NCBI RefSeq assembly: GCF_001262015.1
Contig: NZ_CP012075.1
Location: 496,001 to 560,000 of the forward strand
DNA: 64,000 bases
DNA from: Prevotella fusca JCM 17724
GTDB taxonomy: Bacteria; Bacteroidota; Bacteroidia; Bacteroidales; Bacteroidaceae
Reading direction: 5' to 3'
Shown: positions 8,455 through 59,588 of the stretch, one piece after another
How positions within the stretch are numbered: the stretch's first letter is position 1
Layout of the letters: every line of letters begins with the position of its first letter
Notes under the pieces: model-generated
Told to the model about the DNA's origin: nothing
The model's input: only the letters and a program-made list of their open reading frames with translations
Databases searched by the model: none
Made by a program: the position numbers and the translations under genes

Positions 8455-9052
8455 GGTTCATCCGTTAAATGAGTGTACACTTTTCGTATAGCTTTAACGG
8501 AAGAACCGGAGTTATTATTAAATAAAAACATAGCCAAGACGGTCTTGGCTACCTACTTTATTATCATCCTCCGACACAGAAAACCTTTTCATGTCAATAC
8601 TGTGAAAAGGCAGACAATGGATTGAAAAATCATGACATAATTTCGAGTAAAACACCTACAGATAAAGGCTAAAACACGTGTAAAGAGCAAGTCTGCAACC
8701 AACAGTAAATCAGTTAGTTATAACGCAGTGCAAGAAAAGGTGCTTAATTGGACTTCAAAAGGGCGTTAGTTAGACCTCAAAAGGGCATCTATTGCAAGCC
8801 AATTGGGCGTCTTTTCAAAGTCAATAGACCATGTATTGGTTTTGAGTAGTTTGAAAATAGTTTACAAATATCGAGTGATATGGGAAGAAGTTGTTTGTAG
8901 AAGGCGAAAGGACATAGCATCTGTTAGCATTTTCTGCATTTTTATTTTGTGCATTATCCCTTTTTGTGAGACCATCTGATTTTGGATAGTCATACCATGC
9001 AGGTGTATAAGCCTTTATTCTGTTTCCAATCTATGCATTTAACGGAAGAACC
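8455..9052 (+). mobile_element. MITE copy B (598 bp)
   Basis: Ends are GGTTCATCCGTTAAATGAG and, on the other strand, GGTTCTTCCGTTAAATGCAT. It is flanked by a perfect 8-bp duplication AATTTTTT (8447-8454 and 9053-9060). It has the AGCCAAGACGGTCTTGGCT hairpin near 8532 and the 11-bp array at 8740-8827. It landed just upstream of the TTACTTTG promoter-like box of the IS1634-type remnant. 8-bp A+T-rich duplications and GG-TCTTC ends resemble ISL3-family elements, so mobilisation by an ISL3 transposase encoded elsewhere is inferred. Confidence 0.9.
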
Positions 9053-15060: not shown

Positions 15061-18000
15061 TTACTTAATGCTTTTATACGTAATTACATTTTCTCTAAAT
15101 AAATATGCTTCTGACGAACCCAAATCAACCATCCGGTTTAAAATCCAAATATAATCGTCAATTAGTTTTTTGTCGTTTTTGATTTTTGAAATGTGATTGT
15201 AGAAAAGTCTTTTAATCATTCTATCTGATGAAACTGATGTCAAAGATAACGAGGTCATAGGATTTGATTTGAAAACATCTGCCAGCCAACTGATACCTTC
15301 TGGTAAAAATTCTTTTCCACCAATTGTTGAAAACACATTTATTACTGATGAAGCATTGCTTTTTCCTTTTTCAAGAAATATTTTTTTGTAAAACTCTTTT
15401 TTTCCATTCAAAACACTCCAATTATTTTCATTGGGATTACCTTGATAATCCCATAGCAAATATCTAATGTCCAACAGAAGTTTTTGAATTAGCGGGTGTG
15501 TTCCATCACTTGGGATTAAATCAAACAGAACTTCCCATAGATTCCAAAAGTTGGTCTGTTGCTGTGAGTATTTTATTTGGTCTATTTTTAAATTTCCATT
15601 GTCATATAATTTCAATACAAAATAATCCAAAGTAGTATTCACAAATTGAAACAAATCGTCTCTTCCAAATCTTTGTCTTTGCGTATTTTTTGACAATGAA
15701 TTGACCAATGTAGTTAAAACAGATTTTGAAAAATCAAAATTTGCGTCCAAAAATAAATTGGCAAGATATTGTTCAATATCTGAAATTGATTCGTGATGAA
15801 ATTGTCGAGATTCTCTTCCTCTGTTATATGAATAATCTTCTTTTTTAGTTAAGTCGCCAAGAACTATCGGTAATATGTGGTTTATGAAATCTGTAAAATC
15901 TTTATCTGCTGTGTCGTATGGCGTAATTACAAAGGCTCTTGCAAGTAAATATCCCTCACACTTTTCTAAACTAATTTCTGAAAGGTCAAACTTTAAATTC
16001 TTATTGGATGAAATTTGTTGAACAAATTTTTCTTCCTTGTCCAGCACTTCCTTTAAACTATCTTCATCTTGGTGTCTATGAGATTTAGGATTAGCTTTTT
16101 TGTAACAAGCATACTTAATGAGACCAAGCCAAACCCTTTTTGCTTCATTAGGAAATTGTTTGAAAAATACTTCTCTAAAGTATTGTATGATTTTGTCAAA
16201 TTCGTGTTTAGCAAAGGGGGCAAATAGCATTGAAATTATCATTGCTATTATTCTGTCCCTATCTTCATCACCTTCCACATTTTCCATCAGCAAGTGAAAA
16301 GAAGATAAAGCAATATCTTTTTCCAGTATGTTGATGCTCATATTAAGGCTATGTTCTCTGTTAAATTTATATTGTAGAATAGAAACTATTGCATCAGTAA
16401 TTATTTCTATACACTTTGTTTTTTGCTCTTCATTTATGTTTGTTGAAAAATCTCTCAGTCCTAATACAGCTAACGTAATTGGTCTGTCATAAAGGATATT
16501 TAAGGATTTTGATGAAGAATATTGTTCATAGCAAGATAACCAAGATGAAAAATCAATAATTTCTTTCTTTTCGTAAGTTTTTGAAAGTTGTCCTGAAATA
16601 TTCAAAGACTTTGTATCTGCTTCAAAACTTTCTTTATTGGATTCAATAAACTTTACAACTTCATCATCGTATTCAGGTTGAATAGGAAAACCACCAAGTT
16701 TTTCATCATATTCTCCAACTTTTTGGTTTCTGATATCCATTTCAATTAAATTCTTTTTCCATATAACATCTTTACCATCATATTGTGCTTTTAGTTTGTC
16801 AATTATTTGGTGAATTTCTTTGTTTAATTTTCTAACATTAAATTGATAGTCTAAAATAAAATCTCGAAGCCCTCTTTGATATTTTTTTCTATGTGGAAGT
16901 TGATTTGATTCCAAACGCTCTTTTTGTGCAAATGAAATACGTCCATCCATTGAGGCAAGCACTGAGCTTTCTTGAAGTGCTCGACTTAAATCCCACTCAT
17001 AAAATTCCTTGACAGACAATAATGACAACATCGCCTCTTCAACTTCTCCGGGATAAGCAATAGCAACGCTCGTTAAAACCGCTATTGGAGCAATATTATT
17101 GCTGTTTTTAAGAACATAATCAAATATAAACTTCAAGTTCTCTCTACTAACATCTGTCTTTCTTTTAGCCGTTTCTAATAAAAACTTCTCAAGGCTCATT
17201 AGCAATGATTCCAATGCGTAGTTTGTAACGCTTAAACCTCTGTAAGCCGCCCATAATTCCCACGCCGCATATAGTTCTGTTTTTGTTCCGTCATTCTGTT
17301 CTATTTCAATTTGAGAAATTTTATGCTTATATTCACAAGTAGCGTTTACATAAAATTCAACCGAATAATTGATAAAATCAATGATGAACTTCAAACCAAC
17401 GATTGGATGAATCCACAATAAATTGTAAAAAGGCGTTTTGTAAATTCCCGAAGGGAAAAAGGAATGTCTATCTCTTATTCCCCAACATTCTTCATAACTC
17501 AAAGAATTCCTTGCCAATATGCCAAATCTATCTTCAGGAAAATCTTCTTTTTGGGGTGGTATATATTTCCAATTTTTCCAAGCTGTTTCAATAATCAATT
17601 CAGGCAATTCTTTTATCAAACGCAGGTTTCCTATACCTGAAAGACTACTTTCAATTACATTTTCGTAAAAAGAATTTAATCTCCAAGATTCCCGATTTTC
17701 TTTCTTGGTAAATGCTCTTGCAATAAGTTGTTTAATTTCTTCCTTTGAAATTGAAGCCAAGTCAAATAAAATTGAAATCAAGTTTGATGATTTACCTTTG
17801 ACATTTTCCTCTTGCCAAAATTCTTTTTCTTCTTCAACTTCTTTCAAATAGGTTAGGACAATAGATTTTGCCGCCTCTAATTCTGCGTTTTCAATTTTTT
17901 TGTATTGAAAAAGTAATCGGTAATACCAATTAGTGAGAAAATTGAGTATTGTAAGTTTTATTGATTCTAATTGAGTATTGTTCTTTTGAATAAAAAACAA

Positions 18001-20139
18001 TGCTTCTTTCCAACCCGAACCAATCGGCAAAAGCAAATTGCTGTTGTTCGTTTTTTGGTCGCTTTCTTTGCAGCAAGTTTTTATGATATGCAAACATCTA
18101 TTGAAGAAAACAGAGTTGTCTTCAAGAAGTTCTTTTTCAAAAGAAGTAAAAAATGAATTACTGTTTTCTGACTTAAATACAGCTACCAACAATTCATCTG
18201 CCCAATATTTCTCAATAGTTTGGTCAGCAATTGTTACCTTGATCAGTTCATTTATTTTACCATTGTTGTCAATTAAATAGTCTTCCACCCAAAGACGAAA
18301 TGCTCGTCTAATAGCCGGCTCGTTTCCTAAATTGTTGAAAAAATCTTTTGGATTTGGAAAGTCTTCAAACTTTGAAGAAACATATTTTACTAATGCCCAA
18401 TCTTCTAATATATCGTGAGTGGGAGAATACTTTCTGTTGTTGTTTTCCTGAAATACAATTTCATCATTTTCTAAACAGGCTATAGCCTCTGCATCAGACT
18501 TATCAGGTTTAGTAAAGAGTTTCATTTCCTTTGCTCTCTTTACTGCAATTTCTTTAAAGGCTTCTTCACGTTTAAGTGGAAGTCCATTTTTTGTATTGGT
18601 TGAATCTACAACTAATGAATTCCATAACTTGTCTTTAAACTCTGTCTGCGAAACATTAGCATAATCATCGTTTGTTTTACTAATTGCTAAGATTGAGAAG
18701 TCCAGATATTTTGGACTTTGCAACAACTTTTTGACTTTGTCGTTTTTTAGAACACTATTTAACTGCGGAAACTTTTCAGCTACAAGTTTTAATTCTTCTT
18801 CATTAAGCGTTGGAATGTCAATTATACATATATTGTCTTTATCAATACCAAATTTTAATGTAATTAAATCAATCGCATATTTCCGTGACGAAGCAATTAA
18901 TTTAATTTCTAGGTGCTCTTTAAGTAACGCTAATAACTGTTTAAAGGCACATTCGGGGTCTGCTTCCAATAGCTTTTCCAAGCTATCAACGAAAATAATT
19001 TTTTCAGGAATAAGGGAGATACATGAGAAAATATTTTGTATTGTTTCATTTACCCCTTGACTTGAGAAAACATTGGTGAGCGTAGATTCATTGAATTGGT
19101 CTGCTCTGAAAACAAACACACTTGCATTAGGATAATCTTTTTCAAGGATCTCTTTGATTTCAGCTGATTTCCCAACTCCAGGTTTTCCTGTCACAATCGT
19201 TAGTTGGGAATTACTTAGACCAACTAAAATTTTTTCTCTTAATTCTGATCGTTGTAAATGAAATTCGTTTTCTCCTTTTCCAATATAAGTTTTTATTGGT
19301 CGTAAAATCTCATTGCTGTCTGATTTAAGTTTTTCAACGGCTTTGAAGTATGGAGTTAAATGTGTGTTATCAAAATGCTGAAAGAAATCTTTATCTTTAA
19401 TACTTTCAAGTGTCACACTTCCACCATTTGGATTAAGCGTAGCAACATAAGCAAAAATACTGTCCCAAATATCTTTTTCGGTTGTTGCCGAATTTTTGTT
19501 TTTACTGAGCTTAATCAGATTGAGAAAATATGTTTTATCAATACTCCCTTCGTTTAGGAAATCATATTCCAAAACATCAACACATTTCAAAAACTCCCAA
19601 AGTTCTTTATCTGTCAAATATGTATTTTTATTTGCTTCTTTTAGCACCTCACGAAAAACATCTAATCGGTCTTTCTTTCCTTTTATCCTGTTTACTTCGG
19701 TAATAAAATCTGCTTCTGTTGCGTGATTTTTTGCCCAATTAAAAAGCGATTTAAGATGATTTCTTTCATCTTTAGTTAAACCATTCTTTATTATAATAAG
19801 TTTATCTTTTGATTTGTCAAAAATTGAAGTATTATTATAGTCTTTCCAAAAAGCATTAATTACCTCTTTGAATATTTCATTATCAACAGTAAATGATATA
19901 TCGTGTTTTACCTGAATCAATATACGATGTTCACCACTTGCTGATTTTGCCGTAACCATAAAATCATCAGTTTCATAGCCTCTGTTAGTTACTTGTAGTG
20001 CAACCTCCGATAATTCACCAGAATCAAGACATGGAGCATTACCATGAATGATAAGAGTTGTAAGAAACGCCGTTTGAACGAGTTGTTCAAAGTTTGTCCC
20101 ACCTCCTCCTTTTTGAAATACGCTTCCCTTTTGTGACAT
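15061..20139 (-). CDS. Giant nuclease-STAND-like ATPase, probable stand-alone antiphage defence protein
   Basis: 1692 residues, no signal peptide. Residues ~8-100 hold a PD-(D/E)xK-type nuclease: KGGGGTNFEQL with Glu18, then YETDDFMV (Asp58/59) and ILIQVKH (Gln76-x-Lys78), the arrangement of Cap4/DUF4297 or Mrr-like nucleases. After a helical linker, an ATPase follows: Walker A GKPGVGKS at 318-325, Walker B IIFVDSLEKL at 381-390, LIASSRK at 414-420, and a winged-helix-like YSPTHDILEDWALVKY near 570. The last ~1000 residues are helical, without a family I recognise, fitting a ligand-sensing solenoid. This effector-ATPase-sensor order is that of Avs-type STAND defence proteins, known to detect phage proteins and then degrade DNA. 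It is alone on its strand, very A+T-rich, and surrounded by IS debris. Membership in a named Avs class is not shown; function is inference. Confidence 0.7.
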   Translation of the reverse strand: MSQKGSVFQKGGGGTNFEQLVQTAFLTTLIIHGNAPCLDSGELSEVALQVTNRGYETDDFMVTAKSASGEHRILIQVKHDISFTVDNEIFKEVINAFWKDYNNTSIFDKSKDKLIIIKNGLTKDERNHLKSLFNWAKNHATEADFITEVNRIKGKKDRLDVFREVLKEANKNTYLTDKELWEFLKCVDVLEYDFLNEGSIDKTYFLNLIKLSKNKNSATTEKDIWDSIFAYVATLNPNGGSVTLESIKDKDFFQHFDNTHLTPYFKAVEKLKSDSNEILRPIKTYIGKGENEFHLQRSELREKILVGLSNSQLTIVTGKPGVGKSAEIKEILEKDYPNASVFVFRADQFNESTLTNVFSSQGVNETIQNIFSCISLIPEKIIFVDSLEKLLEADPECAFKQLLALLKEHLEIKLIASSRKYAIDLITLKFGIDKDNICIIDIPTLNEEELKLVAEKFPQLNSVLKNDKVKKLLQSPKYLDFSILAISKTNDDYANVSQTEFKDKLWNSLVVDSTNTKNGLPLKREEAFKEIAVKRAKEMKLFTKPDKSDAEAIACLENDEIVFQENNNRKYSPTHDILEDWALVKYVSSKFEDFPNPKDFFNNLGNEPAIRRAFRLWVEDYLIDNNGKINELIKVTIADQTIEKYWADELLVAVFKSENSNSFFTSFEKELLEDNSVFFNRCLHIIKTCCKESDQKTNNSNLLLPIGSGWKEALFFIQKNNTQLESIKLTILNFLTNWYYRLLFQYKKIENAELEAAKSIVLTYLKEVEEEKEFWQEENVKGKSSNLISILFDLASISKEEIKQLIARAFTKKENRESWRLNSFYENVIESSLSGIGNLRLIKELPELIIETAWKNWKYIPPQKEDFPEDRFGILARNSLSYEECWGIRDRHSFFPSGIYKTPFYNLLWIHPIVGLKFIIDFINYSVEFYVNATCEYKHKISQIEIEQNDGTKTELYAAWELWAAYRGLSVTNYALESLLMSLEKFLLETAKRKTDVSRENLKFIFDYVLKNSNNIAPIAVLTSVAIAYPGEVEEAMLSLLSVKEFYEWDLSRALQESSVLASMDGRISFAQKERLESNQLPHRKKYQRGLRDFILDYQFNVRKLNKEIHQIIDKLKAQYDGKDVIWKKNLIEMDIRNQKVGEYDEKLGGFPIQPEYDDEVVKFIESNKESFEADTKSLNISGQLSKTYEKKEIIDFSSWLSCYEQYSSSKSLNILYDRPITLAVLGLRDFSTNINEEQKTKCIEIITDAIVSILQYKFNREHSLNMSINILEKDIALSSFHLLMENVEGDEDRDRIIAMIISMLFAPFAKHEFDKIIQYFREVFFKQFPNEAKRVWLGLIKYACYKKANPKSHRHQDEDSLKEVLDKEEKFVQQISSNKNLKFDLSEISLEKCEGYLLARAFVITPYDTADKDFTDFINHILPIVLGDLTKKEDYSYNRGRESRQFHHESISDIEQYLANLFLDANFDFSKSVLTTLVNSLSKNTQRQRFGRDDLFQFVNTTLDYFVLKLYDNGNLKIDQIKYSQQQTNFWNLWEVLFDLIPSDGTHPLIQKLLLDIRYLLWDYQGNPNENNWSVLNGKKEFYKKIFLEKGKSNASSVINVFSTIGGKEFLPEGISWLADVFKSNPMTSLSLTSVSSDRMIKRLFYNHISKIKNDKKLIDDYIWILNRMVDLGSSEAYLFRENVITYKSIK

Positions 20140-20357
20140 ATTAATTTATCCCTTTAGTATCCTCCCCATTTTAGACAACAGGTTGGTGTTTATTTTACTG
20201 TTACAAACCTACTTTTTTTCCTTTCCCTTAATTCCGCAGCATAATTTCTTGTGAGAAATCCAAGTGCCTGAGAAACAAAGTCCTCAAAACACTTGGATAA
20301 GTCAGAATTTTCACCTATCTTAGTGCAACAAACATAACAAGCAAGCAAAAATCTGAC

Positions 20358-20744
20358 ATGACAAAGGTAGCAATTAAAAACGAGAATATCACTTCTTTCG
20401 GAGGATTTTATCACATCATGGACGTTTTTTCAAAGTTGGGCTTTGAAAAACTTACCGAATCCGTGTTGGGCAGACGCGGATGCAGCGGCAAGGCATTCAG
20501 CCATGGAAGCATTCCAGGCTCTCTCTTCTTCAGCTACCTTTGTGGTGGGGATTGCCTTGAGGACATCAATGCGCTTATTGGGCAGTTCAAGCAGAGACCT
20601 GGTACGCTGTTACCCGGTGCCGACACCGTGGGGCGCGGACTGAAGGAGCTTGCCGAAGAGAATATTGTCTATAAGAGCGAAACCTCCGGCAGGTCTTATA
20701 GTTTCAACACTGCAGAGAAGCTGAACACCTTACTTTACGGATGA
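20358..20744 (+). pseudogene. IS1380 transposase, N-terminal fragment
   Basis: 128 residues: MTKVAIKNENITSFGGFYHI, then a conserved CGGDCLEDINALIGQF segment and a GADTVGRGLKEL motif typical of IS1380 transposases near residue 90. A stop codon ends the frame, and 23 bp later MITE C begins. The continuation past the MITE (DLDFYHQFVPAHKFDAKYSY) shows where the original frame went. Non-functional. Confidence 0.8.
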
Positions 20745-20767
20745 TACGGAGAATGGGGCTTATAAAG

Positions 20768-21366
20768 GGTTCTTCCATTAAAAGCGTGGATGTTTTTCGT
20801 ATAGCTTTAACGGAAGAAGCTGAAGTTATGCATTAAATAAAAACATAGCCAAGACCGCCTTGTCTACCTACTTTATTATCATCCTCCGATGCAGAAAACC
20901 TTTTCATGTAAATACTTTGAAAATGCAGACAAGGGATTGAAAAATCATGACATAATTTCGGATAAAATATCAACAGATAAAGATAAAAATACGTGTAAAA
21001 AGCAAGTTTGCAACCAGCAGTAAATCAATCAGTTATAAGGTAGTGCAAAAAAGGTGCTTAATTGGACTTCAAAAGGGCGTCAGTTAGACCTCAAAAGGGC
21101 GTCTTTTGCAAGTCAATTGGGCGTCTTTTAGAAGCCAAGAGACCATGTATTGGTCTTGAACTGCATGAAAATAGTTTACAAACATTGATTGATATGGGAA
21201 TAAGTTGTTTGTAGAAGACGGAAAGACACGGTATCTGTTTGCCTTTTCTGCATTTTTATTTTGTGCTCTATCCCTTTTTGTGAGACCGTCTATTTTTGGA
21301 TAGTCATACCAGACAGGTGTATAAGCCTTTGTTCTGTTTCCTATCTACGTATTTAACGGGAGAGCC
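20768..21366 (+). mobile_element. MITE copy C (599 bp), inside IS1380 copy 2
   Basis: Ends GGTTCTTCCATTAAAAGCG and, reversed, GGCTCTCCCGTTAAATACG, flanked by a perfect 8-bp duplication TTATAAAG (20760-20767, 21367-21374). Copy A sits at the same base of the other IS1380 copy with the same duplication and the same GGCTCTCCC end variant, so both descend from one insertion. The internal hairpin is decayed here (AGCCAAGACCGCCTTGTCT). Confidence 0.9.
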
Positions 21367-21369
21367 TTA

Positions 21370-21922
21370 TAAAGGCGGGCAGTCATGTTGACCTGGACTT
21401 TTACCACCAGTTTGTTCCTGCCCACAAGTTCGATGCAAAGTATTCCTACAGGCAGGACCATGGTTATTTCCAGGGCTGGGCTTCCATCGGGGGCATCATA
21501 GTCGGAGGTGAGAACCGTGACGGAAACACCAATGTGAATAACTGAAATATATGCCCTTTTCCCTCATGGCTGAGAACATGGCTTTCATGATGGTTACTGC
21601 CATACTGAAGAACTTCTATCTCGTCCGCCATATCAGCGAAAAGGTCAAGCCTTTGAAAAAGACAAGCAGGCTGAAAGCCTTTATCCTGCATTTTGTCAGC
21701 GTGCCGGCAAAATGGGTGCAAACAGGAAGGCGGAACGTTCTGAACCTGTATACAAACAAAGCATACTATTCTGAGGTATTCCTTGAACAAGCAGCATTTC
21801 TTTGTGGTTCTCATATTCCCCATTGGTTTGGGTGGGGGATTTCATGCATAGGCAAGACCCAGGAAGCCTCGAAAATCCCCATATCAACATATAGAGCCCC
21901 AAAAAGACATCTCAACACATAA
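21370..21922 (+). pseudogene. IS1380 transposase, middle and C-terminal fragment
   Basis: Coding sense resumes after the MITE with FYHQFVPAHKFDAKYSYRQD and GGENRDGNTNVNN, reaches a stop at about 21543, and then jumps to the C-terminal MAENMAFMMVTAILKNFY and FILHFVSVPAKWVQTGR. The missing middle holds the catalytic core. The identical joint is present in copy 1. Confidence 0.75.
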
Positions 21923-21958
21923 AATCGCCTCACAAGAAAAAACGATGCGGAATTGAGG

Positions 21959-22871
21959 TCTTTTATCAAACGCAGGAACTTACGGCTTCCAGCAACATTA
22001 CAACGCTCACCTACATTGACAAAAGATATTTCAGGAGACAGCCCGGAACTGCTCAAGCCCCGACAGGATCATCTCCTTCGGAGCATCAACAGGCACATGC
22101 GTTTTCTTTCCTTCAACTATCCTGGTGTAACCAGCAATGAACTCTTCAGTTGTCCCACAACAGCCGCCTATGATATTTACAAGACCATCATCTACAAAAG
22201 CAGCCATCTGTGACACCATTGTGTCAGCTGTCTCGTCATATAACCCCATTGTATTAGGCAATCCGGCATTGGGATGAACACTGATGAAATAAGGTGCTTT
22301 AGCCGCCAGCTCTTTAAGATAAGGGCGCATTTGTTCTACACCGAACGAACAGTTCAAGCCAACAGAAAAGATTGGATAAGAAGAAACTGAGGCAAGAAAG
22401 GCATCGAGTGTCTGCCCACTGAGTTGTTCTGCCAGAAAGGTCAGTAATCGTCACTGACAGCATGACAGGCAGGTCAACACCAGCTTTCTGCATCTCTGAC
22501 AATGAAGCATCAATGGCAACCTTTGCATTAAGCGTATCAAAGATTGTTTCAATCAAGACAGCGTCAATCCCACCTTCTATCATTGCAGCGACCTGTTCAC
22601 TGTAAGCAGCAAACAGGGAATCGTATGTAAGGTCACGCTTGGCAGGGTCGCTGACATCAGGCGACATAGAACACGTCTTGTTCGTAGGACCAATACTACC
22701 TGCAACGAAACGAGGCTTATCAGTTGTAGAAAACTCATCAGCACACTCACGGGCAATCCTTGCACCTTCAAAGGCTATATCACGTGAAAAGTTCTCCATG
22801 TGATAATCCCCTTGGGAAATACGCTGGGCAGAAAATGTGTTTGTGCTGATAATGTCTGCACCAGCTGCTAA
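21959..22871 (-). pseudogene. metH: metH fragment (cobalamin-dependent methionine synthase)
   Basis: The minus strand encodes DYLAAGADIISTNTFSAQRI and then most of the homocysteine S-methyltransferase domain, including the zinc-site segments LNCSFGVEQMRPYLKEL and IGGCCGTT, and ends in the start of the pterin domain, [20 protein letters not shown] one-base insertion (AACAACTC for AACACTC) near 22440 breaks the frame. The first ~60 residues are missing at the IS5 end and everything beyond the pterin start is missing at the IS1380 end. It cannot make MetH; an intact copy elsewhere is possible. Confidence 0.9.
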
Positions 22872-27395: not shown

Positions 27396-27982
27396 GGGTC
27401 TTCCGTTAAATGCGTAGATTGGAAACAGAATAAAGGATTATACACCTGCATGGTATGACTATCCAAAATCAGATGGTCTCATGGATAAAGTACAAGATAA
27501 AAATGCTGAAAACAAATACCATGTCTTTCCATCTTCAACAAACAACTTATTCCCATATCAACCAATGTTTGTAAACTATTTTCATGCAACTCAAAGCTAA
27601 CACATGGTCTTTTGGCTTTGAAAAGACGCCCAATTGGCTTGCAATAGATGCCCTTTTGAAGCCTTACTGACGCCCTTTTGAAGTCCAATTAAGCACCTTT
27701 TCTTGCACGACTTTATAAATGATTGATTTACTGTTGGTTGCAAACTTGCTTTTTACACGTGTTTTTGCCTTTATCTGTAGGTGTTTTACCCGAAATTATG
27801 TCATGATTATTCAATCTGTCGTCTGCATTTTCAAAATATTAAAATGAAAAGGTTTTCTGCGTCGGAGGATGATAATAAAGTAGATAGCCAAGACGGTCTT
27901 GGCTGTCTTTTTGTTAAATGCATAACTTCAGGTCTTCCGTTAAAGCCATACGAAAAGCATCCTCGCTTTTAACGGATAAACC
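27396..27982 (-). mobile_element. MITE copy D (587 bp)
   Basis: Flanked by a perfect 8-bp duplication ATATATAT (27388-27395, 27983-27990). Ends GGGTCTTCCGTTAAATGCG and GGTTTATCCGTTAAAAGCG. It is in the same orientation as copy A. The 11-bp array covers about 27616-27703, followed 30 nt later by GTTGGTTGCAAAC, and the AGCCAAGACGGTCTTGGCT hairpin lies near 27884. It sits directly upstream of the SDR promoter. Confidence 0.92.
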
Positions 27983-28779: not shown

Positions 28780-28815
28780 TCCAGTATAAAGAAACTACAC
28801 TTTCACGGAATTCTT

Positions 28816-28888
28816 TTCATGAAAAGAAATATTTATCTTCACGAAAAAAAATATTTTTCTTCATGAAAAGAAATATTTATCGTCATGA
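28816..28888 (+). repeat. 22-bp A+T-rich tandem repeat with internal symmetry
   Basis: Three and a half units of 22 bp: TCATGAAAAGAAATATTTAT at 28820 and again at 28864, with the middle unit TTCACGAAAAAAAATATTTT, then a partial GTCATGAAGATAA. Each unit carries the palindromic ATGAA/TTCAT and AAATATTT cores. It lies between the convergent SDR and rluA genes, where it might affect transcription ends. Confidence 0.75.
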
Positions 28889-28943
28889 AGATAATTCGCT
28901 GTAACCGCTTTCCATAATACTTCCAGCTTGCCCCGGATAAGCA

Positions 28944-31398: not shown

Positions 31399-32350
31399 TA
31401 GATTATATCCGATATTCGCAAATTTAAACGAACAAAAGTTTATCTTTTTTAATCTTTTTATCCAATCAGTTGTTCGTTTTTACGGTTGAAAACATCTGTA
31501 CATTCTACAGTATCATTTTAGAAACAAAAGCGTCAAGAACTTATATTCAGACGAAATCGCCCAATACGATACACTTCTTCTTACAGTATGAAGATAAAAC
31601 AGTTTTTGGTTAAGTAATAGAACATTCTGCCACTAATCATCTTAATTGTTTTGAAAAATGCAAAGCTATATGCAGCTTTAAGCTGACGATAGAAAGAAAC
31701 ATATAATAAGTGAAAGAAAAAGATGAACGGAAAGGTTGTCTGACATAAGGCAACATCATAAAGAACAATGTTTACAGTACAGCCTATAATTTGTTTGGGA
31801 GCAAAAGACGCTGTGAACAGTATCATGTGCTTATAGGTTATGTAATAAAAAATCATCACAGACAAAAGCGCATTGATGCTTACTTGCGTTCCTATAAAGG
31901 CTTAACTGCCGTTCAATTAAGCCTTAGTTACGTTCCAATTAGTGCTTAGTTGCAGTATAATTAAGCACCTTTTCCCATGAAGATTTATATCCACATGATT
32001 ACATGTTAGTTACAAATCTAATAGGAAAAGCATTTCTATGTAGAGCTTCTGGTTCTTTTATGTGTTTATTTTATAAGGAAATTTCCTCTCTCCTGCCAGT
32101 GTGTTACCAGTGCCTGCACAATGATTTTCTTAGACCATAATCAGAACTTCCACTAAATATCAACAACGCCATTCTTTCTTAATACTATACCAAGTCGTAA
32201 AAGAGCAGCTTAGCCTGCATGATATTAAAAAAATTATCCCCCGATTCACATCGAGGGATAACAACAACACAAACACAAAATAAAGCAGGATACACCTGCA
32301 ATACTGTTTTGCTTACTAATCTAGACTTTATTAATCGTAAAAAATGATTC
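31399..32350. other. Long intergenic region between tetR and galE
   Basis: About 950 bp without a convincing gene. A 94-codon minus-strand frame at 31581-31865 is hydrophobic and low in complexity (FIFFFHLLYVSF), has no visible relatives or start signals, and is probably chance. The region holds 11-bp array 2 at 31889-32016. Between 32230 and 32290 there is a loose hairpin (ATCCCCCGATTCAC/GAGGGAT) that could end transcripts from galE. Confidence 0.5.
31889..32016 (+). repeat. 11-bp repeat array (8 units) with GTTAGTTACAAA motif (array 2)
   Basis: Eight units in exact 11-bp phase from 31889 to 31976; for example GCTTAACTGCC (31900), CCTTAGTTACG (31922), GCTTAGTTGCA (31944), and the terminal unit CACCTTTTCCC (31966). 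Odd and even units differ consistently, so there is a 22-bp higher order. GTTAGTTACAAA begins at 32005, about 29 nt after the array end. This copy is not inside a MITE. Confidence 0.85.
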
Positions 32351-33403: not shown

Positions 33404-34735
33404 TACTAGTGATGCAATAATTTTAAATTAAACTTCATATATCCCTTTATTAATAAGGGTTTCAGATCGTTCTTTGATTTTTTGATTTGAAAATGACAGC
33501 GTAACTTTGCAACCAAAACTGCATTGTTATGAACGTCGGTCGATATGTGTTTTCACAAGTTGTGAAGTACATACCTCGTTATCAGTTCGACAAGTGCGTG
33601 AAGAAGTACCGTGGCGACTGGCATGTCAAGGATTTGACTTGTTACAACCAGCTTCTGCACCTTTTGTTTGGACAGCTGACGAGTTGTGATTCTCTACGGG
33701 ACATCTGCCTGTGTCTTGGTGCCCACAAGGACATCCTCTACCATCTTGGATTTGGCAACACGGTCAACCAGTCATCACTTTCCCGAGCTAACGACAATCG
33801 GGATTACCGCATCTATGAGGAGTTTGGCATCTATATGATAAATCTGGTAAGACCTTTATACACAAGGACCTCGATACCAGATGTCACTATAGACAACGTA
33901 CTTTACTCCCTCGATTCCACGACCATCTCCACAAGTGTCAAACTTGCGACATGGGCTTTAGGAAGATACAACAAGGGGGCGGTGAAGATGCACACTCTGC
34001 TTGACTTGCGCGGGAGCATTCCAGCAAACATCCACATCACGGATGGCAGATGGCATGACAGCAACGAACTTGAACTGACTGCGCCGGAGCCTCTTGCCTT
34101 CTATATGATGGACAAGGCCTATGTTGACTTCGATGAGTTCTTTCGCTTCCATTTGGCTGGAGCCTATTGGGTTACCAGACCGAAGGACAACATGAAATAC
34201 GAGATTATTGGTCATAGAAAAGACTTCTCCCGAGAGGATGGTATTCGAGGCGACTTTACCATTCGCTTGACTCAGCCAAAGACTCATGCACTTTACCCTG
34301 AGCCTTTCAGGGCAGTCTGCCACTATGATGAGGAGACGTGTGAAGAAATAGTGTTCATCACTAACAACTTCGAGATCAGCGCAGTGGAAGTGTCCGTCCT
34401 GTATAGGCACAGATGGGACATAGAGGTGTTCTTCAAGTGGATAAAGCAGAACATTGTCGTGAAGACCTTGTGGGGGTATTCCGAGAATGCAGTCCGAATC
34501 CATCTCTGGGTTGCAGTCATCGCCTATCTGCTTGTTGCAAGAATAAAGGCGGACAACAAAAGCCCATACACCATTACGGAAGTGGCAACGCTGATAAGAG
34601 TTTCTGCTTTGGAGAAAACTCACCTCAGAGATTTAATCACTAAGCCGAGAACCTCTGTCATTTACAATCAATATGTCAAAGAACTACCTCTATTTGATAA
34701 TATGTAAAACTTAACGCGATTTTATCGCATCAGTA
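33404..34735 (+). mobile_element. Intact IS4-family element inserted upstream of galE
   Basis: The ends TACTAGTGATGCAATA and, reversed, TACTGATGCGATA are imperfect inverted repeats. A 12-bp near-duplication flanks them: CTTTAGTTTTTT (33392-33403) and CTATAGTTTTTT (34736-34747), 11 of 12 matching, in the size range known for IS4. 1.33 kb with one intact transposase transcribed away from galE. Confidence 0.8.
33529..34707 (+). CDS. IS4-family transposase (DUF4372 plus DDE domain)
   Basis: 392 residues. N-terminal DUF4372 domain (GRYVFSQVVKYIPRYQF, then LRDICLCLGAHKDILYHLG), then the DDE core: Asp in LYSLDSTTIS (~129), Asp in FYMMDKAYVDF (~195), and Glu in the Y-x2-R-x3-E-x6-K signature YRHRWDIEVFFKWIK (~295). 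A TAACTTTG box at 33497-33504 lies 25 nt upstream of the start. The frame is intact, so probably active. Confidence 0.92.
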   Translation: MNVGRYVFSQVVKYIPRYQFDKCVKKYRGDWHVKDLTCYNQLLHLLFGQLTSCDSLRDICLCLGAHKDILYHLGFGNTVNQSSLSRANDNRDYRIYEEFGIYMINLVRPLYTRTSIPDVTIDNVLYSLDSTTISTSVKLATWALGRYNKGAVKMHTLLDLRGSIPANIHITDGRWHDSNELELTAPEPLAFYMMDKAYVDFDEFFRFHLAGAYWVTRPKDNMKYEIIGHRKDFSREDGIRGDFTIRLTQPKTHALYPEPFRAVCHYDEETCEEIVFITNNFEISAVEVSVLYRHRWDIEVFFKWIKQNIVVKTLWGYSENAVRIHLWVAVIAYLLVARIKADNKSPYTITEVATLIRVSALEKTHLRDLITKPRTSVIYNQYVKELPLFDNM

Positions 34736-36625: not shown

Positions 36626-36940
36626 ACGCAGTAATGCTATAATCCCTATGCTGTAAAAGGATATAACACCTTTTATCCGATAGATTATCTTTTAGTGCTG
36701 TCCTGTAAACATTTCCCGTATAAATTAGTCATAGGCGTCTTACTATGACATGAATAATCATAATAACCCTTTCTTCCCGTTTTCGGCTGATGTGTTGCTG
36801 CCCATCACACGTGGTGGTGTTGGTAAACACCATTGGTGTTGAACACTAATCACTTTGCGATATGTTGCCGGAATACAGACATCTTTTACTTACCAAGCAG
36901 AGTTATACTACCAAAAGTAAACAAAACTTATTTGAGATTG
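36626..36940. other. Intergenic region between convergent genes with short hairpin repeats
   Basis: No gene. At 36815-36832 TGGTGTT-GGTA-AACACCA forms a 7-bp hairpin, and the GGTGTTG motif recurs at 36836; this is the sort of small palindromic repeat often seen between Prevotella genes. A terminator function for the DUF5103 unit is possible. Confidence 0.5.
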
Positions 36941-39626: not shown

Positions 39627-40242
39627 GATTCTTCTGTTAAATGCGTAGACACTTTTCGTATAGCTTTAACAAAAGAACCGAAATTATGCATTATACAAAA
39701 AGACAGCCAAGACAGTCTTGGCTGTCTTTTTTATTATCATCCTCCGACACAGAAAACCTTTTCATTTTAATACTTTGAAAACGCAGGCAATAGATTGAAA
39801 AATCATGACATAATTTCGGATAAAATATCTACAGATAAAGGCAAAAATACGTGTAAAAAGCAAGTTTGCAACCAACAGGAAATCAGTTGGTTATAAACCC
39901 GTGCAAGAAAAGGTGCTTAATTGGACTTCAAAAGGGCGTCAGTTAGACCTCAAAAGGGCATCTATTGCAAGTCAATTGGGCGTCTTTTAGAAGCCAACAG
40001 AGCATATATTGGTTTTGAGTTGCATGAAAATAGTTTACAGACTCCGATTGACACGGGAATAAGTTGTTCATAGAAGACTGAAAGACATGGTAACGGGTAG
40101 ACATCGTTCTCATTTGCCTTTTCTGCATTTTTATTTTGTGCTTTATCCTCCTTTGTGAGCCCATCTGATTTTGGATAGTCATACCATGCAAGCGTATAAG
40201 CCTTTATTCTATTTCCAATTCCATGCATTTAACGGAAGAACC
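39627..40242 (+). mobile_element. MITE copy E (616 bp)
   Basis: Flanked by AAAAAATA (39619-39626) and AAAAATTA (40243-40250), an 8-bp duplication with one mismatch. Ends GATTCTTCTGTTAAATGCG and GGTTCTTCCGTTAAATGCAT. Its central hairpin is the best in the family: 39697-39713 pairs perfectly with 39715-39731, 17 bp with A-run and T-run, i.e. a bidirectional terminator shape. The 11-bp array is at about 39912-40000. It lies 52 bp upstream of the lepA -7 box. Confidence 0.92.
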
Positions 40243-44976: not shown

Positions 44977-45274
44977 CAGTTAGTCTGTCTCTACATTAGG
45001 TTCTCGGTAACGAAAGTAATTGTCTGTAGAGTTTTATGCAAACTTACATAAAAATCTTAAATTAAACATCAGTAAGATGAAAAAAACACGCTCTTTAAAA
45101 AAAATATACGAATAATAATAATCAAAACAAACGTTCTATCCGCTCTATACGATAAGAAACAACTGTATTTTAAAGACAGGATAAAGACTATACATATAAC
45201 TCAGAAATCTACTTCATGAAACATTATTTGTCATAATAAAATCATAACAGGAAATCTGTTGATGATGATTTGCA

Positions 45275-45402
45275 CTCAAATTAAGCCCAAACTGTCGGTC
45301 AAAAGATGCTTAATTGAAGCCTAACTAAGGCTTAATTGAGATCCAACTAAGCACCTTTTCTTGCATAGTCTCATAACTGACTGATTAACTGTTAGTTGCA
45401 AA
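45275..45402 (+). repeat. 11-bp repeat array (8 units) with GTTAGTTGCAAA motif (array 3)
   Basis: Eight units in 11-bp phase from 45275 to 45362. Clear units are GCTTAATTGAA (45308), GCTTAATTGAG (45330), and the terminal CACCTTTTCTT (45352); even units are of the GCCTAACTAAG type (45319). GTTAGTTGCAAA begins at 45391, 29-30 nt after the array. Same architecture as array 2 and as the module inside the MITEs. Confidence 0.87.
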
Positions 45403-45646
45403 TTATAGGAATAACCCTTTAAATCAATGTCCTTATAAGAAAACAACAACTTGTTTTGTAAAACAATTTCAAACCAGCATATTACCATCTTTAAGGAGCA
45501 CTAAAGCAGCTATCAAGCGATAATAGACTTTACTCTAAGCGACATTTGCTACTGTTCCCTCCTTTGGAGGGGCTGGAGGAGATTTTGTTTTGAAAACATC
45601 TTCAAAGGTTCTGCCCCCATACTGTCCATATTACAGAAACATTTTG

Positions 45647-56872: not shown

Positions 56873-57473
56873 GGTTCATCCGTTAAATGCGTGGACACTT
56901 TTCGTATAGCTTTAGCGGAAGAAGCGAAGTTATTCATTAAATAGAAACATAGCCAAGACGGTCTTGTCTACCTACTTTATTATCATCCTCCGACACAGAA
57001 AACCCTTTCATATCAATACTTTGGAAACACGCAAGCAACAGATTGAAAAATCATGACATAATTTCGGATAAAATATCTACAGATAAAGGCAAAAACACAT
57101 GTAAAAAGCAAGTCTGCAACCAACAGTAAATCAATTAGTTATAATGTAGTGCAAGAAAAGGTGCCTAATTGGACTTCAAAAGGGCGTCAGTTAGACCTCA
57201 AAAGGGCATCTATTGCAAGCCAATTGGGCGTCTTTTAGAAGCCTAAAGACCATGTGTTGGCTTTGAACTGTATGAAAATAGTTTACAAACGTTGGTTGGT
57301 ATGGGAATAATTTGTTTGTAGAAGACGGAAAGACATGGTATCTGTTTGACTTTTCTGCCTTTTATCCTGTGCTTTATCCCTTTTTGTGAGACCATTTGAT
57401 TTTGGATAACTATACCATACAAGGTGTATAAGCCTTTGTTCTTTTTCCAATCTACGCATTTAACGGAAGAATC
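56873..57473 (+). mobile_element. MITE copy F (601 bp)
   Basis: Flanked by a perfect 8-bp duplication ATTCATTT (56865-56872, 57474-57481). Ends GGTTCATCCGTTAAATGCG and GATTCTTCCGTTAAATGCG. The 11-bp array lies at 57161-57248 in eight units (e.g. GACTTCAAAAG at 57172, GACCTCAAAAG at 57194). It is downstream of dciA with no gene at risk. Confidence 0.92.
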
Positions 57474-57804: not shown

Positions 57805-58647
57805 TTATTTCAATATGAATATACTTTTTTTCTTGTAGTCTAAAACAAATGTCTTTCCCCATAGAAAAGAGGCATTGACACGTGGTTCTACATTTCCATC
57901 CAAAACAAAATCTAACAAGAAAATGTTTTGATCGATTTCCATGCTGACTTTTTCAGCGAGTCCCACTTTCTTAATCGTTATTTTGTGGGCTATATCTCCA
58001 CGCATACTTTCAATTTGCTTCGTTGCTGTAACTCCGAAGTTCATTGGTAGATAATTATGTTTGCTGCCAGTATCAAGAAGTATTCGTGTTTTCTTTCCTG
58101 ATATTTTGCCATTCAGATAAATAAAGTTCAAAGCTGCATCCTTATAATTCTCGTGGTTTTTCCATTTGATTGCACTTTGGATTTTAGGCAATGTTTTTTT
58201 TATGTGAGTTAGAATATTCTTTTTCAAGTCAAAGCACCATAGCTCTTCTTTCAGTATGCTTCCTCCTAAAATGAATTTAGGAGCATGTTCTTGAAATTTA
58301 CCAGCCAGGTCAATAACATAACATCGTGTTTCGGGGTAGACAAGACCTCCTACAGAGATACTGTCTAAGTTTAAGACAAAAGATTTAATCTTACCTGATG
58401 CGTAGCCTATTGCCGCATTACTTTCTGTTGATATGATATGGCATGAGTCCGCTGCAAAGGTAGAGTCTATAACGCAAACTGAAGCTCCAGTATCTATTAA
58501 TGCCTGAACATTTTGTGTAGTTCCATTATGTGAAACCGTCACATTGGTGTACATAAAGTAGTCTTTTATAGTCAAGGCGTTCTGTGCATGAAGACAAAGT
58601 GCCAATGACATAAGCAAGCTAAAGATAAGTAAGGAACGGTATTTCAT
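57805..58647 (-). CDS. Retropepsin-like aspartyl protease family protein
   Basis: 280 residues with a signal peptide (LLIFSLLMSLALCLHA). Two aspartyl-protease-like motifs: ALIDTGASVCVIDS near 50-62 and RILLDTGSKHNYLP near 190-203, i.e. one per lobe, as in two-lobed retropepsin-like proteins of Bacteroidota. Expected in the periplasm. The substrate is unknown and protease activity is not certain. Confidence 0.8.
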   Translation of the reverse strand: MKYRSLLIFSLLMSLALCLHAQNALTIKDYFMYTNVTVSHNGTTQNVQALIDTGASVCVIDSTFAADSCHIISTESNAAIGYASGKIKSFVLNLDSISVGGLVYPETRCYVIDLAGKFQEHAPKFILGGSILKEELWCFDLKKNILTHIKKTLPKIQSAIKWKNHENYKDAALNFIYLNGKISGKKTRILLDTGSKHNYLPMNFGVTATKQIESMRGDIAHKITIKKVGLAEKVSMEIDQNIFLLDFVLDGNVEPRVNASFLWGKTFVLDYKKKSIFILK

Positions 58648-58884: not shown

Positions 58885-59310
58885 CTTGATGTTGTTAACT
58901 AATGCAAAGATATAAAATTAAAAATGATATATGATGACAAGATAGTATCTTGGTGAGTTGCCGATAAATATTCCACTGATGAAGAATCCAAACAAGACTA
59001 TCAGTGGAATGAACACTTTTAGTTCTTTTAAAAGCCGTATCAGTGTCCTTAATCGAAGGTGTAGATATAATCCTATCATTTAGTTTGTAACCTGGTTATT
59101 TATAGTAATCATCTTGGATAGTACAAAGGTACATTAGATATTTTATGCTTTCCAGGAAAGTATGTTAAATTACATGAACACTGTATGGAAGTTACATTAT
59201 AATTATGCTATTTCTTTCTGCGGAATAGTTACATCTGTGTTATTTGGTCATATATTGCATAGTGTAGTTGGCTTGGAATGTATATTTGGCATAAGCATAT
59301 CTTGAAGTAT
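58885..59310. other. Intergenic DNA upstream of array 4
   Basis: About 425 bp, A+T-rich. I see no ORF with support, no hairpin with a T-run and no copy of the MITE ends. Confidence 0.45.
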
Positions 59311-59439
59311 AAGTAACTCAAATCGTTTGTCAGGAGAGCATAAGGTTTAATCAGAGACGAGCTAACGAGCTTTTACAATGCAACTAAGTACTTCTTCTCG
59401 TATTAGTTTGTAATATATTGATAGTCTATTGGTTGCAAA
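59311..59439 (+). repeat. 11-bp repeat array (8 units, degenerate) with ATTGGTTGCAAA motif (array 4)
   Basis: Eight 11-bp steps ending in the terminal unit GTACTTCTTCT (59388), homologous to GCACCTTTTCT of the other arrays. Recognisable units: AGACGAGCTAA (59355), AATGCAACTAA (59377). The fixed motif ATTGGTTGCAAAC begins at 59428, 30 nt after the array. This is the most diverged copy, and it keeps the spacing. Confidence 0.7.
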
Positions 59440-59588
59440 CTTGTTGGAAAGTGACGTGATAGTTTTTCTGGTTTTATCCTCCAAAATTCTGGAGTGGTAT
59501 ATAGAAGCGAGCTTGTGAGGAACCTTTTTACCCTTTTCTGTTTTTGCTTTTTTACCTTTCTAAAGTCTTCTATTCCATTTTTTTTGTG

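Follow-up and report, generated by a model that had tools for sequence, protein, structure and literature searches.

The stretch at 31889-32016 (+ strand) is a single copy of a repeated intergenic DNA module in Prevotella. It consists of imperfect palindromes with a period of 22 bp, or two helical turns, followed by a spacer and then GTTAGTTACAAA. Across sequence families and species, arrays of this kind keep their geometry and not their sequence. Our best guess, with a probability of roughly 40%, is that they are DNA-shaping elements at gene ends that are bound by a putative protein. By "the window" we mean the entire 64,000-nucleotide stretch that we analysed, which is C2:496001-560000 of a 3.26 Mb genome (contigs of 1.83 and 1.43 Mb).

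Copies and anatomy of the element

The marked module belongs to a stand-alone element at 31836-32095 (+), which has a left end (TTATGTAATAAAAAATCA), the array, the closing motif, and a right end. We built a profile from 26 copies that had no clear MITE marks. In the window, it found nine elements at full length, of which three stand alone and six lie inside MITEs of about 600 bp. The stand-alone elements, all on the + strand, are the one at 31836-32095 (138.1 bits, E = 3.3e-41); the one at 45223-45480, which is upstream of mutS2 and is the best preserved in the window (186.8 bits); and the one at 59237-59520, whose array is decayed (83.6 bits). All three were among the 26 training sequences, so their own scores are raised by construction. 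The MITE-internal elements are at 779-1032 (+, 124.4 bits; also supported by the MITE alignment), 8619-8872 (-, 128.0 bits), 20932-21185 (-, 114.7 bits, in a MITE inserted into an IS copy), 27564-27818 (+, 123.7 bits), 39794-40040 (-, 129.9 bits), and 57041-57292 (-, 115.7 bits). With up to one mismatch, the closing motif GTTRGTTGCAAA matches the window 10 times, versus 1.0 expected, and 9 of these 10 matches are within copies of the element. Shuffled sequence does not reproduce the element: none was found in 3.2 Mb of dinucleotide-shuffled sequence, which corresponds to 50 shuffles of the window.

An earlier note on this DNA, made from the sequence alone, described four independent loci that share eight 11-bp units, a spacer, and a fixed motif. 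Its description fits 31889-32016 and 45275-45402, both of which sit in longer elements. The lag-22 identity is 0.56 at the first of these (reached by 0 of 2,000 base shuffles) and 0.48 at the second (reached by about 2 of 2,000; P = 0.001). The other two loci belong to the same single family, but they do not have the full architecture. At 59311, the phase is not significant: the lag-22 identity is 0.34 (P = 0.066), which we take to mean that the array there has decayed, and neither lag 11 (P = 0.63) nor the palindrome chain (P = 0.95) stands out. At 1340-1442, the lag-22 identity is 0.47 (P = 0.001, 2,000 base shuffles), and the closing motif has no match with up to one mismatch. This array (profile match at 1320-1399, +, 15.2 bits) adjoins an IS/MITE copy; since it abuts sequence matching the IS copy at 1190-1354, it looks truncated. 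Nor are the four loci independent: all of them derive from one repeat, as paralogs.

The neighbor of the decayed element at 59237 is a retropepsin-like aspartic protease (57805-58647; Pfam PF13650 and PF13975), and the neighbor protein of this site has no match in 6 related genomes at E = 1e-20. Elsewhere in the window are a very long open reading frame (15061-20139, 1,692 amino acids) with only a weak AAA match and an IS4-family transposase (33529-34707; NCBIfam NF033592, 220 bits).

Counting loci genome-wide, as the earlier note proposed, gave a high number. A DNA search matched all 40 of the candidates that were scored, out of 214. For the 17-base closing piece, there are 175 matches with up to 3 mismatches (24 for the reversed pattern) and 152 with up to 2 mismatches (0 for the reversed pattern). 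R1, a sequence-only model from 27 copies, has at least 150 matches in this genome: all 150 of the candidates that were scored, out of 1,647. We collected 74 full-length copies, of which 27 stand alone, 34 are in MITEs, and 13 are in neither alignment. The stand-alone class was defined by a score of at least 140 bits and by having no MITE marks. The marked copy, at 138 bits, is just below this cutoff and outside the 27-copy alignment; it is among the 13 unaligned copies, as is the copy at 59237 (84 bits).

Alignment of the 27 copies shows that the true period of the array is 22 bp. Identity is 0.52 at a lag of 22, 0.40 at 11, and 0.41 at 33. Among the remaining lags between 8 and 35, it is 0.32-0.35 for 10, 12, 21, 23, and 34 and drops to 0.15-0.28 for the rest. 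Palindrome centers fall every 11 bp. The array is a tandem row of imperfect 17-bp palindromes, one per 22 bp, of the kind CAANNRRG-N-CYYNNTTG (our own summary). The palindrome formula CAANNRRGNCYYNNTTG, which is also our summary, matches the window 12 times when one mismatch is allowed, versus 2.7 expected. The 11-bp units that the earlier note took for the basic repeat are actually half-sites of these 22-bp repeats. The two alternating types of unit that it saw do exist, but they are the two half-sites of the palindrome. Mixed half-sites are common, and the last palindrome of the array is asymmetric (CAANTAAGCACCTTTT). The helical phase of the array, and the fixed order of array, spacer, and motif, are both supported.

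The consensus for the stand-alone element is about 246 bp long and reads TTTTGTCATAATATTTCA ... array ... TTATAAC...GTTACAAAC ... TTATGTAAATATATTTCA. The copies are 245-248 bp long in 25 of 27 cases (the others are 238 and 253 bp), and the segment made up of array and tail measures 143 nt in 24 copies and 144 nt in the other three. Choosing copies by score favors those without indels, so these constant lengths are suggestive only.

The stand-alone element has no terminal inverted repeats; in the 27 copies, its ends are direct (TTTTGTCATAATATTTCA and TTATGTAAATATATTTCA). The MITE does have them, although they are imperfect: the 34 copies align over about 600 bp, and their consensus starts with GGTTCTTCCGTTAAATGCG and ends in an imperfect complement of it. 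Several copies of the MITE sit at one point inside IS copies. At the insertion point, 10 bp are shared by two uninterrupted IS copies (L178 and L186), a sign of a probable target duplication of about 10 bp; both represent the same point and one event only, and the ends of BLAST alignments can overrun by chance. In the IS copy at P. denticola locus L189, two transposase pieces match IS1380 (NCBIfam, below the curated cutoff). The IS copies in the window at 20226-21959 and 3-1354 (IS1380-like, below the NCBIfam cutoff) are interrupted by the MITE at a point identical to that in further IS copies of this genome (L171, L021, and L181). From these sequences, it looks as if the IS and the MITE spread jointly.

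Geometry across sequence families and species

We scanned for five successive palindromes at a fixed spacing (arm 9, mean of at least 0.60; the threshold is our choice), regardless of their sequence. In 864 kb of this genome, there were 9, 13, 21, 29, 75, 19, 2, 7, and 2 chains at spacings of 7 to 15 bp, and after the bases were shuffled within 200-bp blocks, there was 1 chain at a spacing of 11. In 800 kb of another genome from the genus, G171, there were 65 chains at 11 bp versus 4-24 at other spacings (4 after shuffling). Six Prevotella that lack or nearly lack the family of the marked element had 8 chains at 11 bp in 88 kb, versus 0-1 at other spacings and 2 after shuffling; these 8 chains are from 4 of the 6 loci, with 5 intergenic and 3 in long open reading frames. 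The surroundings of mutS2 (59 kb, from four species with the family) gave 6 chains at 11 bp, 0-1 at other spacings, and 1 after shuffling, and 200 kb of P. bivia gave 6 chains at 11 bp and 0-3 elsewhere. Outside of Prevotella, the signal is weak or absent: Segatella and other Prevotellaceae had 5 chains at 11 bp in 189 kb (0-3 elsewhere), loci from other Bacteroidales had 1 chain in 83 kb (0-2 elsewhere), and S. buccae, with 2 chains in 200 kb and up to 2 elsewhere, had no clear signal.

Tandem Repeats Finder (TRF) gives a similar picture. Repeats with a period of 22 make up 99 of 165 intergenic rows in the 864 kb of this genome, 70 of 206 in G171, 5 of 20 in P. bivia, and 1 of 5 in S. buccae, where rows may overlap and include MITE copies. 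Inside open reading frames, 22 is not among the five most common periods. The 78 non-overlapping period-22 arrays in this genome (at any location) fall into 19 groups at 17/22 identity, nine of which have a single array; in G171, 52 such arrays form 18 groups. The units are more palindromic than shuffled units in this genome (0.688 vs. 0.582, P = 5e-7) and in G171 (0.679 vs. 0.575, P = 2e-5). The window itself contains two arrays from other families: one at 28816-28889 (TTCATGAAAAGAAATATTTATC; TRF, 3.4 copies; palindrome chain of 0.82) with the same 22-bp period, and one from a third family at approximately 36780-36880 (GGTGTTGGTAAACACCATTGGTG...; palindrome chain of 0.60 at a spacing of 11 bp). 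The largest TRF group in this genome (27 of the 78 arrays, with seed AAAAGAAATATTTTTCATCGTG) is of the same kind as the array at 28816-28889. The proposal in the earlier note that geometry persists while bases diverge holds more widely than was claimed, across sequence families and species.

The copy number of the marked element's family varies between species. At E ≤ 1e-3, with up to 150 candidates scored per genome, R1 had 56 matches in P. jejuni, 112 in P. denticola, 130 in P. multiformis, 83 in P. histicola, 6 in P. veroralis, 3 in P. vespertina, 1 weak match in Segatella buccae, and none in the remaining eight of the 15 genomes. (P. jejuni is the nearest of the named relatives listed for this genome's MutS2 protein, at 93%, and very near records may have been omitted. 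This would make the organism an oral-type Prevotella, probably from the P. melaninogenica group.) Among 397 other genomes from the genus, the pattern for the closing piece had 17-20 matches in G171, G185, and G386 and at most 4 in the others; R1 had at least 150 matches in each of these three. We had considered the arrays of G171 to be a pure "dialect switch," and we withdrew this idea because the same family occurs in the window's genome (44 profile matches in 864 kb).

The element is at mutS2 in four species, as it is upstream of this gene in P. denticola, P. multiformis, and P. jejuni as well (in P. jejuni, as judged by eye), and further intergenic regions are shared. The version at mutS2 in P. 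jejuni has similar end motifs, tail, and spacing, with units of the kind CAAGAACATGCCCTTCTTG. In P. jejuni itself, all 40 of the candidates for this version that were scored, out of 212, matched. Elsewhere, it has 1 weak match in the window's genome, 1 stronger match in P. multiformis, 16 weak rows in P. histicola, and no match in three other genomes searched. P. denticola has two classes of elements, with and without the end motifs, and the class without them has CAANNAAGGCCTNNTTG; in P. histicola, 2 of 5 copies have units of the kind AAAAGGGCATCTTTT. Other versions of the array are found in P. jejuni, P. denticola, P. histicola, and P. bivia. In our reading, the unit sequence differs between species in both half-sites together. 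Another type of repeat, with several similar short stretches (CTCCTTTTCACTCCC...), lies beside an array in P. jejuni (locus L249, 980-2330).

Some individual sites are not shared. In partial data weighted towards element loci, 28 of 34 P. jejuni copies had no two-sided flank match. Of the six sites that could be compared, the window's genome has an element at three and not at the other three, one of which (C1:506538) carries an array from the third family. Conversely, P. jejuni has no element between the genes that correspond to the marked site at 31836 (as judged by eye). Together with the decayed copy at 59311, this empty site implies that individual copies are dispensable. Copies at orthologous sites are no closer to each other than to other copies (ranks of 10, 7, and 4 of 14, and 7, 2, and 4 of 11, from a lenient alignment in which shuffled sequences reach 0.62 identity). 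Shared positions therefore do not prove inheritance, and we rejected orthologous inheritance of copies as an explanation. In G171, all 3 of 3 sites were shared, which is within chance, as 35 of 74 convergent intergenic regions are occupied (0.47 cubed = 0.10).

Location, orientation, and known repeats

Arrays are almost always intergenic: long open reading frames account for about 80% of bases, and 71 of the 74 arrays in this genome and 62 of the 65 in G171 are found elsewhere. Stand-alone copies favor regions between convergent genes (16 of 27 copies vs. 33 of 130 intergenic regions above 250 bp, P = 0.001; genes are simple open reading frame calls, with cutoffs of 80 amino acids for the copies and 100 for the background). 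Across 864 contiguous kb of this genome, where we counted intergenic regions from 120 bp upwards, the profile places elements in 17 of the 74 convergent regions, in 12 of the 81 divergent ones, and in 19 of the 193 tandem ones. The nine best stand-alone copies from the same 864 kb show no clear bias (3 of 74, 2 of 81, and 4 of 193). In G171, two families combined occupy 35 of 74 convergent, 23 of 76 divergent, and 28 of 191 tandem regions. For arrays from TRF, the convergent bias has P = 0.013 in this genome and is weak in G171 (P = 0.09).

A link to replication, another suggestion of the earlier note, seemed plausible by eye and was rejected by a GC-skew test. With replichores drawn from the GC skew of 20-kb samples, 11 copies are co-oriented and 17 are anti-oriented (P = 0.34; 28 of the top 35 copies could be assigned). 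In a wider set, 53 are co-oriented and 68 are anti-oriented (P = 0.20; 121 of 150 copies assigned).

We compared the arrays to several known systems. Plasmid iterons and parC-type partition arrays are helix-phased repeats of sites for cooperative binding, and they occur at one locus per replicon, beside the gene for their own protein. In contrast, the Prevotella arrays occupy dozens to hundreds of loci and belong to many sequence families. REP/BIME and REPIN elements are biased towards the 3' ends of genes, and we know of no exact 22-bp tandem phase in them. REP/BIME and REPIN elements are also numerous, intergenic, and palindromic, with lineage-specific sequence (PMC2817692, PMC3733652). Unlike the arrays in Prevotella, REPs are palindromes of 20-40 bp. 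Furthermore, the Y1 tyrosine transposase (PF01797) was found in 0 of the 7 element-bearing genomes that we searched, and we rejected REPIN/REP elements with a RAYT on this basis. PF01797 is present in 3 of 4 genomes without element matches and in 5 of 14 control genomes.

BrickBuilt, a MITE of Porphyromonas gingivalis, is also from the Bacteroidales, and it is reported to be always intergenic and to have internal tandem repeats of about two turns (PMC4596501). It is a single sequence family whose 23-nt direct repeats number 1-22.8, whose terminal repeats are of the GAGACCTTTGCA type, and which has 19 copies in one strain; the main text contains no word starting with "palindrom" (PMC4596501). 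The Prevotella arrays have a period of 22 instead of 23 and, in their MITE, different terminal inverted repeats from the ISPg1/ISPg9 type that this source gives for BrickBuilt (PMC4596501). Helical phasing has also been tied to DNA shape and nucleoid structure through the genome-wide periodicity of A-tracts at 10-11 bp (PMC3940949). That periodicity is a diffuse statistical signal (PMC3940949), while the arrays in Prevotella are discrete rows of palindromes. Finally, CRISPR arrays have near-identical repeats with unique spacers, while these units are degenerate and run head to tail without spacers.

Competing explanations

A row of dimers on one face of the helix would need what the arrays provide, namely sites with mirror symmetry and a spacing of exactly two turns. 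In our preferred explanation, the element is dispersed non-coding DNA with a core of about 17-bp imperfect palindromes every 22 bp. A putative dimeric protein would sit on one face at every second turn, and the dimers, binding cooperatively, might bend or bridge the DNA. From its location at gene ends, we suspect that the element has a structural, topological, or insulating role: it could be a spacer that holds or absorbs supercoils or that blocks read-through. The MITE of about 600 bp would be a vehicle that carries the same module. The analysis shows the geometry, the number of copies, the preference for intergenic and convergent locations, the variety of sequence families, and an absence of conserved RNA pairing; the protein, its binding, and any effects on topology or transcription are inferred. 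A cooperative protein-binding array was also among the options in the earlier note. Against binding, a search that covered one transposase family found no binding protein, the sites vary and the last of them lacks symmetry, some copies have decayed, the marked site is empty in P. jejuni, the signal outside of Prevotella is weak or absent, and the placement bias is weak in some sets.

The main rival explains much of the same data. The arrays could be selfish or passive repeats, with no function for the host, that were spread by a copying process and survive where they do the least harm, chiefly between convergent genes; the 22-bp palindromes would perhaps arise through a polymerase or recombinase whose step size is fixed. 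We view this as a serious possibility, at somewhat worse than even odds. Selfish repeats would account for a high and lineage-specific copy number (the three genomes of 397 that stand out), for P. jejuni having its own version with just one weak match in the window's genome, for orthologous copies being no more alike than others, for the empty site in P. jejuni, and for the module also riding in a true MITE. But copying alone leaves unexplained why exactly 22 bp and palindromy are common to many families, and copies that have diverged to about 70% identity still hold their length and phase (although these were picked by score). Neither the row of dimers nor selfish repeats yet accounts for a single step size across many families. 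A further rival, in which every stand-alone array would be left over from an old MITE copy, would fit with the MITE holding the whole element at the same spacing. The earlier note had raised it, and we consider it very unlikely: 27 of 28 copies with at least 140 bits lack the MITE marks that we searched for within 250 bp, the aligned flanks of the 27 stand-alone copies have no consensus beyond about 246 bp, and the same geometry recurs in array families that differ from the MITE's.

The element might instead act as RNA, in the form of a transcribed array of hairpins that terminates or protects transcripts. The palindromes are able to fold, and either strand of 31875-32020 folds better than its shuffles (z = -3.3 and -4.4). 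Arrays from the other families gave z = -4.8 at 28805-28900 and z = -2.8 at 36780-36880. Terminator-like matches lie inside 5 of 16 convergent copies (vs. 2.2 when shuffled) and 9 of 27 copies overall (vs. 3.6). For terminators that read into the element, the counts of 4 and 5 of the 16 convergent copies, versus 1.2 and 3.0 in shuffles, do not point clearly either way. However, folding is not significant at 45275-45410 (z = -1.7 and -1.8) or at 59300-59445 (z = +0.4 and +1.6), and RNA hairpins do not require an exact step of 22 bp. RNAalifold gave a consensus of -1.28 kcal/mol for 27 copies, none of the 10 pairs showed a change in both partners, and nothing in the window matched a curated Rfam family at the gathering threshold. 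Given the lack of compensatory changes, we rejected a structured RNA family, which the earlier note had also suggested, and we think that a role as RNA is unlikely.

A bolder idea is that the arrays form a class of regulatory or architectural DNA in Prevotella that is defined by its geometry and not by its sequence: short intergenic rows of palindromes at every two turns, with many interchangeable families, each perhaps with its own fast-evolving putative dimeric binder, and with different "dialects" of one constant architecture in sister species. This idea is tentative, and we are more inclined to doubt it than to accept it. Our search of the literature, which covered mainly open-access papers, found no description of such arrays in Prevotella. 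Intergenic repeats are usually defined by their sequence, but here the invariant is the two-turn spacing and the mirror symmetry. Such an invariant would suggest that some protein, or some process that makes DNA, measures turns of the helix. The scan for geometry is a way to find elements that are missed by sequence searches. The arrays also connect gene ends with DNA topology in a way that can be tested, and they do so in bacteria that are a major group in the human mouth and gut.
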